Source: an uncultured Treponema sp. (GTDB taxonomy: Bacteria > Spirochaetota > Spirochaetia > Treponematales > Treponemataceae). From it: a stretch of DNA of 64,000 bases. Of this stretch, positions 8,908 to 60,414 are shown one piece after another. The notes under the pieces were generated by a model. That model did not search any database. It saw only the letters and a program-made list of their open reading frames with translations, and was not told the origin of the DNA. The position numbers and the translations under genes were made by a program. Position 1 is the stretch's first letter, and every line of letters starts with the position of its first letter. The stretch is from contig CAMNDY010000004.1 in the NCBI GenBank assembly GCA_946535985.1, forward strand, positions 1-64,000. Reading direction: 5' to 3'.

Positions 8908-9000
8908 TCAGCTTCGCTGATTAAAATTCATACCTGCGAGATTTTTGCTTGCTCGCAAAAGGCTCGCATTTTTGCTTCGCAAAAACCGCAAAAACTCGTG
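8894..9000. repeat. Palindromic element D1 overlapping a stop codon
   Basis: GGTATGAATTTTAATCAGC (8894-8912) and its exact complement (8916-8934) form a 19-bp stem with a TTC loop; the left arm contains the last codons and TAA stop of the beta-propeller gene. A second stem follows, CGAG-A-TTTTTGC (8937-8948) with GCAAAAACTCG (8988-8998), enclosing GCATTTTTGC/GCAAAAAC. The inner core resembles the element at 44796-44855. It lies between convergent genes, but no U-tract follows. Confidence 0.8.
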
Positions 9001-11744: not shown

Positions 11745-11763
11745 AAAAACATGCATTTATAAG

Positions 11764-11866
11764 TAAATTATGAAAAATGCTCCCGCGAAGAACCATGTTT
11801 TGCTCCACTAAAAGAAGAGGACGTTCCGCAAAACATGAACCTTCGCTCCGCATTTTTCATAATTTA
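11764..11866. repeat. Palindromic element A1
   Basis: The outer arms TAAATTATGAAAAATGC (11764-11780) and GCATTTTTCATAATTTA (11850-11866) are perfectly complementary over 17 bp. Inner arms CATGTTTTG and CAAAACATG flank the family core, here CTCCACTAAAAGAAGAGGAC. It lies in the divergent region between the aminotransferase gene and the gene at 12053, about 55 bases upstream of the former's start. Confidence 0.9.
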
Positions 11867-11944
11867 AGATGGGATTTTATAAAACGTTGCAAACCGCAAA
11901 CTTTCTTCAAAAAAAAGGCTCAGCCCGCAGACGCACATACTTTT

Positions 11945-13792: not shown

Positions 13793-13851
13793 AATATTAT
13801 AATTCATTAAATTGATTTGATTGTTTGAATAATAAAACTATGTATTGGTTT

Positions 13852-13941
13852 ATAAAAAATGCGGAGCGAAAATTTGAGTTTTGCGTAACGTCCTCTTTCT
13901 TAGTGGAGCAAAAGGCAAATTTTCGCGGGAGCATTTTTTAT
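13852..13941. repeat. Palindromic element A2
   Basis: Outer arms ATAAAAAATGC (13852-13862) and GCATTTTTTAT (13931-13941) pair perfectly. Inner arms GCGAAAATTTG and CAAATTTTCGC also pair (11 bp), followed by TTTTGC/GCAAAA. The inner arm sequence differs from A1, A3 and A4, yet both sides changed together. The core is in the opposite orientation to A1. It lies between rfbD and folC. Confidence 0.88.
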
Positions 13942-13983
13942 CTAAAAAAATCATATTAAATATATATATAGACTATTATTTTA

Positions 13984-15354: not shown

Positions 15355-15370
15355 AATCTATTCTAATTCA

Positions 15371-15460
15371 TGAAAAAATGCTTCCGCGAAGAACCATGTT
15401 TTGCTCCGCTAAGAAAGAGGACGCTCCACAAAACATGAACCTTCGCTCCGCATTTTTTCA
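15371..15460. repeat. Palindromic element A3
   Basis: Outer arms TGAAAAAATGC (15371-15381) and GCATTTTTTCA (15450-15460) pair perfectly. Inner arms CATGTTTTG/CAAAACATG flank the core CTCCGCTAAGAAAGAGGACG. The 90 bp differ from A4 by only two bases. It lies between the convergent ends of folC and alr. Confidence 0.92.
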
Positions 15461-15473
15461 AAAGCATTTATTA

Positions 15474-16675: not shown

Positions 16676-16731
16676 GATAATTTTATATAAAGATATAAAA
16701 TTATTACTTTAAAAATTAAATATCTAATAAT

Positions 16732-16833
16732 TGTTTATGAAAAAATGCTCACGCGAAGAACCATGTTTTGCTCCGCTAAGAAAGAGGACGCTCCACAAAA
16801 CATGAACCTTCGCTCCGCATTTTTTCATAAACA
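16732..16833. repeat. Palindromic element A4
   Basis: Outer arms TGTTTATGAAAAAATGC (16732-16748) and GCATTTTTTCATAAACA (16817-16833) are perfectly complementary over 17 bp. Six of these bases (TGTTTA/TAAACA) are specific to this locus and absent from A3. Core and inner arms match A3. It lies in the divergent region between alr and the lipoprotein gene. Confidence 0.92.
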
Positions 16834-16893
16834 GAATTAAATTCGATTTATATAATTGTACTTTAATATAAGTATAATTTTATATAAATCCCA

Positions 16894-44777: not shown

Positions 44778-44865
44778 ATTCATGCTGCGCACCCGAGAGT
44801 TTTTACTTGCTCGCGAAGGCTCGCATTTTTGCCTTGCAAAAACCGTAAAAACTCTACCTACTGGT
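44745..44865. repeat. Palindromic element D2 at the end of the UPF0164 gene
   Basis: CGGGTGCGC (44745-44753, within the last codons) pairs with GCGCACCCG (44787-44795) after the stop. AGAGTTTTTAC (44796-44806) then pairs with GTAAAAACTCT (44845-44855), enclosing a core with GCATTTTTGC that closely matches element D1. ACCAG (44740) and CTGGT (44861-44865) can extend it. It lies between convergent genes. Confidence 0.75.
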
Positions 44866-47179: not shown

Positions 47180-47266
47180 AGCACAATATAATCTAAAAAA
47201 AAACGGTTTAAGTCAAGATACTGATCTACGGTTATAAGAAGGAATTAATTAAATGAATATAAATCT

Positions 47267-47447
47267 GAAAAATATATGCTACGGAGTGGGAAAATATAAA
47301 TATTACTTTTAATATAAATTATGAAAAAATACGGAGCGAAGGTTCGTGTTTTGCGGAACGTCCTTTTCTTTTAGTGGAGCAAAATACGGTTCTTCGCGGG
47401 AGTATTTTTTCATTATAAATATGTCACGGGAGTAGCATATATTTTTC
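47267..47447. repeat. Family B palindrome interrupted by a family A element
   Basis: Outer arms GAAAAATATATGCTAC (47267-47282) and GTAGCATATATTTTTC (47432-47447) are exact complements. Between them, with AT-rich spacers, lies a complete family A element (47321-47413). Compared with the uninterrupted B copy at 34107, this looks like one palindrome inserted within another. Confidence 0.88.
47321..47413. repeat. Palindromic element A5, nested inside family B
   Basis: Outer arms ATGAAAAAATAC (47321-47332) and GTATTTTTTCAT (47402-47413) pair perfectly. At the arm's base the pair is ATAC/GTAT here but ATGC/GCAT in A1-A4, a compensated change. The core is in the opposite orientation to A1, A3 and A4. 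Confidence 0.9.
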
Positions 47448-47469
47448 CTTTTATATTAATTTTTTGCTA

Positions 47470-47613
47470 AACCCATCGGCCTAGGGACCGATAATAAAGT
47501 ATGCGGCACTTGAACGGGTGATTTTCGACATCCAGGCACCTGTGTTAGATGCCCCTAGTTTTGTTTACTTTTATTAAGATGAAAGGCGTGTGAGGTCTTT
47601 CATCTTTTTTTTT
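47470..47613 (+). ncRNA. Candidate structured RNA with pseudoknot, unidentified
   Basis: Hairpin ATCGG (47475-47479)/CCGAT (47488-47492) has a loop containing CTAGGG (47481-47486), complementary to CCCTAG (47553-47558). Between them, GGCA (47505-47508)/TGCC (47550-47553) and GAACGGGTG/CACCTGTGTT form a long stem with a 16-base loop. The region ends with a strong terminator, and DUF975 downstream has its own -10 box, which argues for a separate small RNA rather than a leader. It does not match the consensus of tRNA, SRP RNA, 6S, tmRNA or the riboswitches I know. The 5' end is a guess; TATATT near 47450 could be its -10. Confidence 0.45.
47576..47613 (+). terminator. Strong intrinsic terminator
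   Basis: AAGATGAAAG (47576-47585) pairs with CTTTCATCTT (47597-47606) around an 11-base loop, followed by a run of nine T. There is no protein gene immediately upstream on this strand, which supports a short RNA ending here. Confidence 0.88.
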
Positions 47614-47635
47614 ACTTCAATTTAGCCTGATTGTA

Positions 47636-50476: not shown

Positions 50477-50551
50477 GAGTTTATTATATTATTTATTTTT
50501 TATTCTGTCTTTATAAATTATTTCTCGTTATCAATTTATTGATTCCATTAA

Positions 50552-50703
50552 AAAAAAATTGCGCGAGCCGAATTACGAATTGCAAAAAAAACTCTAAACT
50601 GCTGCCGCGTGAGCGGCTACGTAAATAATTCCAAGGCAGTTTAGCGTTTAAGCGGCTAGCCGCTGGTTTTTGCAAGGCGTAATTCGGCGGAAGCAATTTT
50701 TTT
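50552..50703. repeat. Multi-branched palindromic element C2
   Basis: Nested stems: AAAAAAATTGC (50552-50562)/GCAATTTTTTT (50693-50703); CCGAATTACG (50568-50577)/CGTAATTCGG (50678-50687); TTGCAAAAA (50580-50588)/TTTTTGCAA (50667-50675); TAAACTGC (50595-50602)/GCAGTTTA (50636-50643). Two side hairpins, CCGC/GCGG inside the last stem and AGCGG-CTA-GCCGCT at 50651-50664, give a cloverleaf-like outline. It fills most of the divergent region before the GT8 gene. Confidence 0.88.
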
Positions 50704-50759
50704 CTCATGTAATTGCATATTTAAACAATAACCATTATAATTTTATCAGGTGGTGATAA

Positions 50760-57682: not shown

Positions 57683-57967
57683 TTATTTTTCGTCAATGCG
57701 AACAAACTGATATTTCAAAAGATTCATGTTGATTTTGAATTCTTTGTCAATTTCAGCGATTTTGCTTGGATTGAGTTTCATTGTAAAGAGAACGAAACGA
57801 CCTCTTTTCTGCTTTTTGATTTCGTAGGTAAGATCACGGTCACCGAAAGGTTTTTCTTCTTCAATTTCGGCACCAAATTTGGTGAGTGTGCCTTTTACAT
57901 CTTCGGCACCTTTTTTTGACTTTTCATCCTCTAAAGGAAAAATAGTCATAAGTTCATACTTTTTCAT
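57683..57967 (-). CDS. rpsF: 30S ribosomal protein S6
   Basis: S6 binds S18 and the 16S rRNA platform. The 94-residue product has the ferredoxin-like pattern with YELMTIFPLEDEKS at residues 4-17 and the conserved KQKRGRFVLFTMKLNPSKIAE region near residues 52-72. It lacks the long acidic tail seen in some S6 proteins. AGGAG lies seven bases before the ATG but is held in a stem by the leader, suggesting feedback control. First gene of rpsF-ssb-rpsR-rplI. Confidence 0.96.
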   Translation of the reverse strand: MKKYELMTIFPLEDEKSKKGAEDVKGTLTKFGAEIEEEKPFGDRDLTYEIKKQKRGRFVLFTMKLNPSKIAEIDKEFKINMNLLKYQFVRIDEK

Positions 57968-58203: not shown

Positions 58204-58293
58204 TAAAAAATTGCTTTCGCCTGATTTTGGGTTTTACTCCGCTAAGAAAGAGGACGCTCCATAAAACCCAAAATCCTGCTCCGCAATTTTTTA
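58204..58293. repeat. Palindromic element A6 with divergent arms
   Basis: The core is the standard CTCCGCTAAGAAAGAGGACG, but the outer arms are TAAAAAATTGC (58204-58214)/GCAATTTTTTA (58283-58293) and the inner arms GATTTTGGGTTTTA (58223-58236)/TAAAACCCAAAATC (58262-58275), each a perfect pair unlike the other copies. It shows arms that changed while base pairing was kept. Confidence 0.92.
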
Positions 58294-58400: not shown

Positions 58401-58425
58401 TGAAAAATATAGGCTACGGAGTGGA
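58401..58425 (+). repeat. Left half of a family B element
   Basis: TGAAAAATATAGGCTACGGA followed by GTGG resembles the left half of the interrupted B element at 47267-47290. It is followed by family A element A7, but no right half of B (CACGGGAGTAGC...) is found after A7. Confidence 0.6.
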
Positions 58426-58454
58426 AAAAAATAAGAATGTAAATTTTAATAGGC

Positions 58455-58553
58455 ATAGTGAAAAAATACGGAGTGGAAATTTGGGTTTTGCGGAACGTCC
58501 TTTTCGTTTAGTGGAGCAAAACACAAATTTACGCGGGAGTATTTTTTCACTAT
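58455..58553. repeat. Palindromic element A7
   Basis: Outer arms ATAGTGAAAAAATAC (58455-58469) and GTATTTTTTCACTAT (58539-58553) pair perfectly over 15 bp, and inner arms GGAAATTTG/CAAATTT with GTTTTGC/GCAAAAC also pair. The core is in the opposite orientation to A6, 160 bases away. It lies upstream of the ankyrin gene. Confidence 0.9.
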
Positions 58554-58581
58554 AAATATTTATTTTTTTCGGGTTTGGTAT

Positions 58582-58593: not shown

Positions 58594-60414
58594 ATGATTA
58601 ATCGAAGAATTGCTTTAGCTTTAATTATATTTTTAATAACTCTTTCTGCGGGTTTTGCTAAGCCTAAAAAAAAGGGAATAACTGTTCCGACAAAGGTCCA
58701 GGAAAAAATCAATAAAACAGAAGAATCTCCAAAGTCATGGTATATTTGTGAATTAAAAGGTAAAACAAAAGCTGGTAATGTTATAATTGGACCGGTTGAA
58801 CAAAGAGAGCTTATCCTTCTTGTATGGATTGCAAATTCAATCCAACCAAACAAGGATTATTGTATTGCAAAAAATAAAACTTACATTTCTAAAAATCCAG
58901 AAGTTTTTTTTAAAGATGAATTTACAAACATTAAAAATGATATAAACGAATTTGGTGTTGCCGATACTTACGAAAAATATTTCTTTACTAATTACCTTAC
59001 AAGGAGTCTTAAGCTTTCTGTAGACGGCACGGTTTTTGGCGAAAAAGCAAATGAAGAGACTCCTCCAGAAGATGAAGAACTTCCTCAAGAAGAAGGATCA
59101 AAACTAACAAGGGAATTAATAGAAGAACAGAAAAACACTGTAGAAGCAGAAGCCACTCCAGAACCAGAACCAGCTCCAGCACCAGAACCTCTTCCAGAGC
59201 CAGTACCAGAACCAAAAGAGGAGCCTGCTCCTGCACCAGAACCTGTTAAAGAAACAAAACCAAAAATTGTAGTTGAACAGAAAAAAGAAGAAATTCCAGA
59301 AGAACCTGCTCCTATAATTGAAGAAGAGCTCATACCAGAAACTACAAGAGAAATTGTTGAAGAGCAAAATCTTGAACCAATCATAGAAGCTCCACTTGAG
59401 ACTGCTTCAGAAACACTTGCCCAGGCTCAAAAAAAAGAAGAACAATCAGAATATGATAATCTTCTTTTCTCAAAATTAAATCAGGAAAAAACTGATTATG
59501 TTCCTCAGCCAGAAAGCAGACCGCAATCAGTTCCTCAACCAATACCAGAACCAGTTCAAACTCCTGTTCCTGCACCGGAGCCAGAACCAATACCGGAACC
59601 AGTTCCAGAACCAGCACCTGAGCCTATACAAGAACCAGCAGTAGAAACTGTTGCAGAAAATTCTTTTGAGCTTCCTATAAGCACAACTCCTTCTACTAGT
59701 GTAAACAGATATCAGCGTGAAAATCTTTTGGACTACGCACCTAAAAAGACACCACCACTTCCATCTGATGAAGACTTTACATCTTATCAGTTAATTGCTT
59801 CGCCGGATCAGGCCGATTCAAAAGGTGTTACTCTTCTTATGAAAGCTGCAAAAGCCGGCAACAACTGGGAATTAAAAAATCTTCTTAATTCCGGAGCAAA
59901 TGTAAATCTTAAAGATTCAGACGGATGGACTGCTTTAATGTACGCTGTCCGCTATCAGGAAAATACATCAATAATTGATTTATTAATCAGTGCAGGCGCT
60001 CAAGTAAAAACAAAAAATTCTTACAATGTTTCTGCACTCATGCTTGCTTCAACTTACAATGGAAATCCGGAAATTTTACGTAAGCTTTTAAGCTACTATT
60101 CACCTTCTGAAAAAGAAGTTGTTCAATCCTTTGTTTTGATGCTTTCTGACAATTATTCATCTGATTATTCTAAAGCTGCAAAAGTAGATACCTTTATAGA
60201 AAAATCAATTTCCCTCAATTCTTTCTACAATGGAAAAACTCCTTTAATGTATGCCGCTCAATATTGCAGCTCTACAATTGTAATCAAAAAACTTCTTGAT
60301 TATGGAGCCGGAACTTCAATCCGATCTGCCGACGGAAAAACAGCTTTTGATTTTGCAAAAGAAAATCCAACTCTTCCTCATGATGATGTTTACTGGATGT
60401 TAAATAGAAAATGA
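58594..60414 (+). CDS. Secreted Pro/Glu-rich protein with ankyrin repeats
   Basis: A signal peptide (about residues 1-23, ending SAGFA) leads to a globular domain of about 110 residues, then a long low-complexity region of Pro-Glu repeats (about residues 180-370, with PEPEPAPAPEPLPEPVPEP), as in TonB-like or envelope-spanning linkers. The C-terminal 190 residues contain ankyrin repeats (GVTLLMKAAKAGNNWELKNL, DGWTALMYAVRYQ, GKTPLMYAAQY). A periplasmic scaffold reaching across the envelope is a reasonable inference. ATG overlap (ATGA) couples it to rsmD. The role is unknown. Confidence 0.82.
   Translation: MINRRIALALIIFLITLSAGFAKPKKKGITVPTKVQEKINKTEESPKSWYICELKGKTKAGNVIIGPVEQRELILLVWIANSIQPNKDYCIAKNKTYISKNPEVFFKDEFTNIKNDINEFGVADTYEKYFFTNYLTRSLKLSVDGTVFGEKANEETPPEDEELPQEEGSKLTRELIEEQKNTVEAEATPEPEPAPAPEPLPEPVPEPKEEPAPAPEPVKETKPKIVVEQKKEEIPEEPAPIIEEELIPETTREIVEEQNLEPIIEAPLETASETLAQAQKKEEQSEYDNLLFSKLNQEKTDYVPQPESRPQSVPQPIPEPVQTPVPAPEPEPIPEPVPEPAPEPIQEPAVETVAENSFELPISTTPSTSVNRYQRENLLDYAPKKTPPLPSDEDFTSYQLIASPDQADSKGVTLLMKAAKAGNNWELKNLLNSGANVNLKDSDGWTALMYAVRYQENTSIIDLLISAGAQVKTKNSYNVSALMLASTYNGNPEILRKLLSYYSPSEKEVVQSFVLMLSDNYSSDYSKAAKVDTFIEKSISLNSFYNGKTPLMYAAQYCSSTIVIKKLLDYGAGTSIRSADGKTAFDFAKENPTLPHDDVYWMLNRK

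Follow-up and report, generated by a model that had tools for sequence, protein, structure and literature searches.

A6 is a hairpin-forming element in a 64,000-nucleotide stretch of DNA (the window) from the genome of an uncultured Treponema sp. (2.78 Mb in 148 contigs, 86% complete). It shares the intergenic region between the genes for ribosomal protein S6 and an ankyrin-repeat protein with a second copy of the same family at 58448 (Table 1), and inspection of the sequence placed it where the initial annotation had put it. The A6 core, which reads CTCCGCTAAGAAAGAGGACGCTCC on the plus strand (58237–58260), has exact matches at 5 places in the genome (7 with ≤3 mismatches), and 0 occurrences in the window are expected in shuffles. 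Both strands of A6 fold much better than shuffled sequences (z −6.9 and −8.4).

The conserved unpaired bases sit on the strand opposite to the one on which the element was originally read. On this informative strand the arms are separated by an unpaired, fixed C-GNA-G facing C-GNRA-G; in 5′ to 3′ order, the element consists of an A-rich outer arm, C-GNA-G, an inner arm, a second GNA/GGA internal loop, a 2-bp stem, a 13–14-nt loop, the other inner arm, C-GNRA-G and a T-rich outer arm. When any 3-nt/4-nt internal loop flanked by two strong helices was sought with its bases left unspecified, GNA/GNRA made up 92 of the 213 matches, variable only at N and R (G/A), and nearly all of the others were singletons. 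Complementarity of the outer arms is 93–100% at positions 1–10, 86% at position 11 and 64% at position 12. A role as a CsrA sponge was rejected, as GNA is variable at its middle base (GTA, GCA).

Table 1. Features of the A6 locus and related elements, in window coordinates.
Feature	Position	Strand	Remarks
Ribosomal protein S6 gene	57683–57967	minus	Flanks A6/58448 region
A6 element	58204–58293	minus (informative GGA strand)	Core matches, folding, covariation, family model
A6 outer arm, left, TAAAAAATTGC	58204–58214	read on plus	Pairs with 58283–58293, 11 bp
A6 outer internal loop, GNRA side (GAAA on minus strand)	58215–58218	minus	
A6 inner arm, left, GATTTTGGGTTTTA	58223–58236	read on plus	14 bp with 58262–58275
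A6 apical core: GGA/GGA internal loop, 2-bp stem, 13-nt loop	58237–58260	minus	
A6 inner arm, right, TAAAACCCAAAATC	58262–58275	read on plus	Pairs with 58223–58236
A6 outer internal loop, GNA side (GGA on minus strand)	58280–58282	minus	
A6 outer arm, right, GCAATTTTTTA	58283–58293	read on plus	Pairs with 58204–58214
Family-A copy	58448–58559	plus	Second in A6's divergent intergenic region
Ankyrin-repeat gene	58594–60414	plus	Flanks A6/58448 region
Family-A copy	11760–11871	minus	G026 orthologue differs by paired changes
Family-A copy	13841–13951	plus	G026 site empty
Family-A copy	15361–15471	minus	G026 site empty; G019 has other palindromes there
Family-A copy	16728–16838	minus	Site empty in G026 and G019
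Family-A copy	47311–47422	plus	Nested in second palindrome of same design
Family-B relative	50541–50713	plus	Same outer helix, GNRA/GNRA loop, several further helices inside

A6 belongs to a family of palindromic elements (family A) of ~95–115 nt, with about 42 copies in the genome as found both with blast and with a covariance model trained on the copies, the E-values of this custom model being rough and the genomes drafts. The window contains 7 family-A copies and a longer relative at 50541–50713. The palindrome that encloses the copy at 47311 (window 47250–47460) has outer arms near 47266 and 47450 and a GGA/GGGA junction; a left half-palindrome at 58401–58434 resembles it. Two departures from the usual form were seen elsewhere: a short copy without the core, apparently the result of deletion between two CTCCGC repeats (L040, G000:C41:10728-10796), and a long derivative in which the usual outer arms enclose a different, structured interior of ~180 bp (L046, G000:C60:8259-8470).

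Family-A copies have no preferred gene context: among 41 classified copies (including the family-B copy at 50541), 15 lie between divergent, 16 between co-directional and 6 between convergent genes, the rest being unclear, and the co-directional copies are oriented with the genes in 10 cases and against them in 6. This distribution bears on the extremely unlikely proposal that the elements are intrinsic terminators acting in both directions, with a core shared by coincidence. Their outer arms do run from an A-tract to a T-tract, and at some sites they stand near gene ends; however, divergent positions outnumber convergent ones, termination needs neither the inner loops nor the apical core, and some sites are empty in relatives. 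A terminator role was rejected, since copies occur in any gene context.

Paired Change in the Arms and Constancy of the Loops

Covariation was assessed in an alignment of 35 genome copies covering 31 pairs in three helices. Paired cells amount to 96.8%, vs. 82.2% in shuffled alignments; 23 of the 31 pairs are changed on both sides (14.2 when shuffled), there are 164 double-change cells (41.9 when shuffled), and the covariation score is 0.486 vs. 0.194 in the control. Shifting the partner by 1–3 columns lowers pairing to 42–55%. Inner arms are distinct in 32 of the 35 copies.

The initial annotation held that structure is conserved in these elements and arm sequence is not, a statement borne out by this covariation and by the comparison of the same loci between species described below. 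Its further statement that all versions stay complementary goes slightly too far: a non-complementary GGTTC/GGTTC step is kept in about half of the copies, and in A6 a tandem CT/CT mismatch (58221–58222/58276–58277) separates the GATTTT arm from the outer GC step. Likewise, the sequence varies as described but is not free everywhere, given the conserved GNA/GNRA loops, a conserved TTTTG/CAAAA by the apex and conservation of most of the apical loop.

Change at orthologous loci was counted over 310 pairs at ten loci, eight of them shared with G026 (the sole close relative compared, at about 88% DNA identity), one with G008 and one with G019. The counts were 26 double and 14 single changes, vs. 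5.4 and 55 predicted by independence at equal rates. Of the double changes, 24 are Watson-Crick in both species, and 10 of these 24 are transversions, which are unable to pass via a G-U pair. Some paired changes are isolated, such as a T-A to A-T replacement in L050/L010; three in the inner arms of L355/L031 are clustered, with flanks 89–93% identical. At the copy at 58448, G026 has a nearly identical counterpart and lacks the A6 segment.

The loops behave differently from the arms. Among eleven ortholog pairs, fixed loop positions changed in 0 of 124 cases, a count partly favored by the choice of pairs among motif-recognizable copies; free N positions in the loops changed in 5 of 40 (12.5%), and the arms changed at 10.6% per site. 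All 13 of the G026 copies listed from the model keep the GNA/GNRA motif. Two G008 orthologs, L398 and L383, have lost the GNA/GNRA loops, and in one of the two the loop is partly to nearly closed into a helix.

Two causes had been offered for the matched arms, selection for a hairpin or copying of one arm from the other. Neutral copying, in which template switching keeps any palindrome perfect without selection on the fold (PMC8794818), is improbable as the whole explanation. The frequency of transversions among the double changes and the clustering at L355/L031 are what it would produce, as is the partly closed loop in G008; yet the G026 orthologs keep their loops open, with G, R and A in place, which copying that ran across a loop would have removed, and complementarity drops ~11 bp outside the loop. 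Since copying on its own would alter the loops along with the arms and tend to close them, the contrast between unchanged fixed positions and changing arms and N positions favors selection, and arm copying remains a candidate mutational route.

A third route to matched arms is gene conversion among copies, whereby whole interiors are swapped and matched arms are imported together. Different elements do occupy the same site in different species: the C15:18677 site holds an A element in one species and a B element in another, and at the 47311 site G026 has a different family-A element in the opposite orientation. However, with nearly all inner arms distinct, donors with the same arms were not seen in the genome, and isolated paired changes such as that in L050/L010 need no donor, which leaves this route very unlikely.

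RNA or DNA as the Folded Strand

Stems in RNA tolerate G-U pairs, and on the RNA strand G-U then outnumbers A-C. Outside the GGTTC step, the mismatches in a symmetric loop scan were 14 G-U and 12 A-C. Among the 35 own copies, outside the conserved motif, there were 14 G-U and 5 A-C, an excess that is not significant (p 0.06) but counts against a DNA explanation. In family B, the 51 pairs of 19 copies comprise 951 Watson-Crick, 4 G-U and 0 A-C cells, so that 4 of 955 pairs are G-U, compared with 9 of 175 pairs in the tRNAs of these genomes. Given near-equal counts of the two mismatches in the symmetric scan and the rarity of G-U in family B, the pattern appears to fit Watson-Crick DNA hairpins better than RNA.

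A structured RNA, in which a putatively transcribed GGA strand would act as a regulatory or small RNA and the arms would show ordinary RNA covariation, seems unlikely. Several features agree with it, namely the strong covariation and good folding, the conserved unpaired motifs of GNRA type, the GNRA-capped hairpins of family B, and the GGTTC/GGTTC step, which pairs as G-U, U-U and U-G solely on the GGA strand. Against these stand the mismatch counts just given, an orientation relative to co-directional genes that is near random, the many copies in divergent or convergent regions, a patchy presence within one genus, and the lack of any match to the covariance models of Rfam 15.

Relatives Across the Genus and Signs of Insertion

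Matches to the family model occur in 26 of the 118 genomes searched (own genome included), all in one genus. Many of the relatives are 105–170 nt long and have different apical parts on the same outer helix and GNA/GNRA junction, often with the GGTTC step. The initial view of a single family with variable arms was thus too narrow: family A forms one branch within a genus-wide group whose apical domains are exchangeable. Family B, another member of this group, has 51 pairs in a multi-branch fold with GNRA-capped hairpins; its Watson-Crick covariation is very strong, 23 of the pairs showing more than one Watson-Crick type among 19 copies (RNAalifold); G026 carries ~20 or more family-B copies. 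No relative of family A was found in a plasmid collection and none of family B in a phage collection, where the single match was a 34-base chance similarity (E 0.07). At L366 (G071:C3:62006-62468), three elements stand in tandem with ~175-bp spacing.

The copies at 13841, 15361 and 16728 are missing from G026, where their flanks are intact, and absence of the 16728 copy from both G026 and G019 points to insertion. A copy on contig C52 is also missing from both G026 and G008. A target-site duplication is clear only at 16728, where an exact 15-bp direct repeat, ATAATTTTATATAAA, lies at both ends of the insert; it is unclear or very short at three others. The inserts include AT-rich flank, and the ends of the unit are not fixed by the comparison. 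Different palindromes stand at several sites in other species, meaning that intergenic sites are reused. Two sites of family-A copies, L466 (C45) and L439 (C61), have palindromes of the GTCATTGCGAG... and GTCATTCCCGTG... types in G019.

The Y1 transposase (TnpA-REP, PF01797) was sought as a possible mobilizing enzyme. None was detected in the own genome or in G026, G086, G008, G004, G076, G024 and G080 (7–19 copies each), and it is present in five poorer carriers with 1–7 copies (G025, G031, G034, G088, and G090). No parent transposon was found.

A Proposed Mobile Hairpin and Its Comparison with Known Systems

We give about an even chance to the reading of the group as a genus-specific mobile hairpin, resembling REPs and MITEs, that is read as folded single-stranded DNA and selected for its fold and loops. 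A6 would then be one copy of an interspersed, non-coding palindrome spreading between intergenic sites, one DNA strand of which would fold into the acting hairpin; judged from sequence, the active form is probably single-stranded DNA rather than RNA. The features recognized would be the unpaired C-GNA-G/C-GNRA-G together with the apical GNA/GGA loop, which Watson-Crick arms keep in register whatever their sequence; presumably the loops are read by a protein, and the copies owe their movement to an enzyme. The arms could drift provided that both sides change together, with template switching between the arms as the likely source of paired changes, and selection would remove copies with spoiled loops or pairing. 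The failure to find a mobilizing enzyme, with Y1 transposase missing from copy-rich genomes, counts against a mobile element, and conservation of the loops in situ would be surprising in a simple relic of mobility and could point to a function for the host.

REP or GTAG palindromes are dispersed intergenic sequences of 20–40 nt moved by TnpA-REP (RAYT) (PMC3733652, PMC8266576), a Y1 transposase that acts on REPs (PMC8266576). The present elements resemble them as dispersed intergenic palindromes with an irregular stem, a strand-specific unpaired motif of the G(G/T/C)AG type and, by inference here, recognition of the folded strand; on the 5′ side of the inner hairpin lies GGAG, GTAG or GCAG, inside a longer stem and opposite GNRAG. 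They differ in their length (95–170 nt), in a motif placed within the stem as a two-sided GNA/GNRA loop, in their exchangeable apical domains and in having copy-rich genomes without Y1 transposase. Membership in the REP/RAYT system was rejected, as the transposase is missing from the genomes richest in copies.

CGTC-tagged REPs, which are palindromic, have variable stems, lack a dedicated transposase and have been reported in Spirochaetes (PMC3733652), share these first three properties with the present elements, and repeats seemingly of this kind occupy some of family A's sites in G019. However, the CGTC string of family A falls inside the apical loop, and a layout of CGTC, 8–9-bp stem and CCA tail is absent from the 35-copy consensus. 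With MITEs, the elements have in common their small size, lack of coding sequence, AT-rich surroundings, many copies and presence or absence between relatives; in contrast, they lack a common terminal sequence, and target duplication is clear at one site only.

The attC sites of integrons are recognized as a folded single strand via unpaired bases, and their arms are largely free in sequence and their terminal structure is variable. Largely free arms and a variable terminal structure are found here too, with unpaired bases as the proposed recognition features, but R and L boxes were not seen by eye in the 35-copy consensus, and the copies stand singly between ordinary genes rather than in cassette arrays. 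RNA hairpins maintained by template switching undergo multi-base compensatory change without a G-U intermediate (PMC8794818), as do the present elements, which differ in being dispersed and intergenic, in having fixed internal loops and in showing so far no sign of RNA genes; the same process may explain their Watson-Crick, transversion-rich and sometimes clustered double changes.

A broader form of the mobile-hairpin reading, possible but on the unlikely side, is a modular genus-wide hairpin system in which one frame (outer helix, GNA/GNRA junction, inner helix) would carry interchangeable apical domains, a non-Y1 enzyme would move the folded single-stranded DNA, and coupled copying of the arms would keep the fold while the sequence is renewed. 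Since each genome offers dozens of loci and several related species carry them, compensatory change can be traced one locus at a time. Two questions become testable on this material: whether template switching alters both sides of a hairpin pair at once, and how palindromic repeats are moved where a REP transposase is missing.

Other features of the window were noted in passing. Repeats of the GCCCTTCGACAGGCTCAGGGACC type at 805, 2583, and 40158 are a separate interspersed sequence, and a 39-bp repeat, AAGGCTCGCATTTTTGC..., occurs at 8959–8997 and 44816–44854 (92% identical). For the ribosomal protein L9 encoded in the window, the nearest PDB entry is 8fmw, a Borrelia ribosome, which is suggestive of a spirochaete. 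A noncoding segment at 47460–47620, for which Rfam yielded no match above threshold, lies upstream of a DUF975 gene and is almost identical in G026 despite a genome difference of ~12%.
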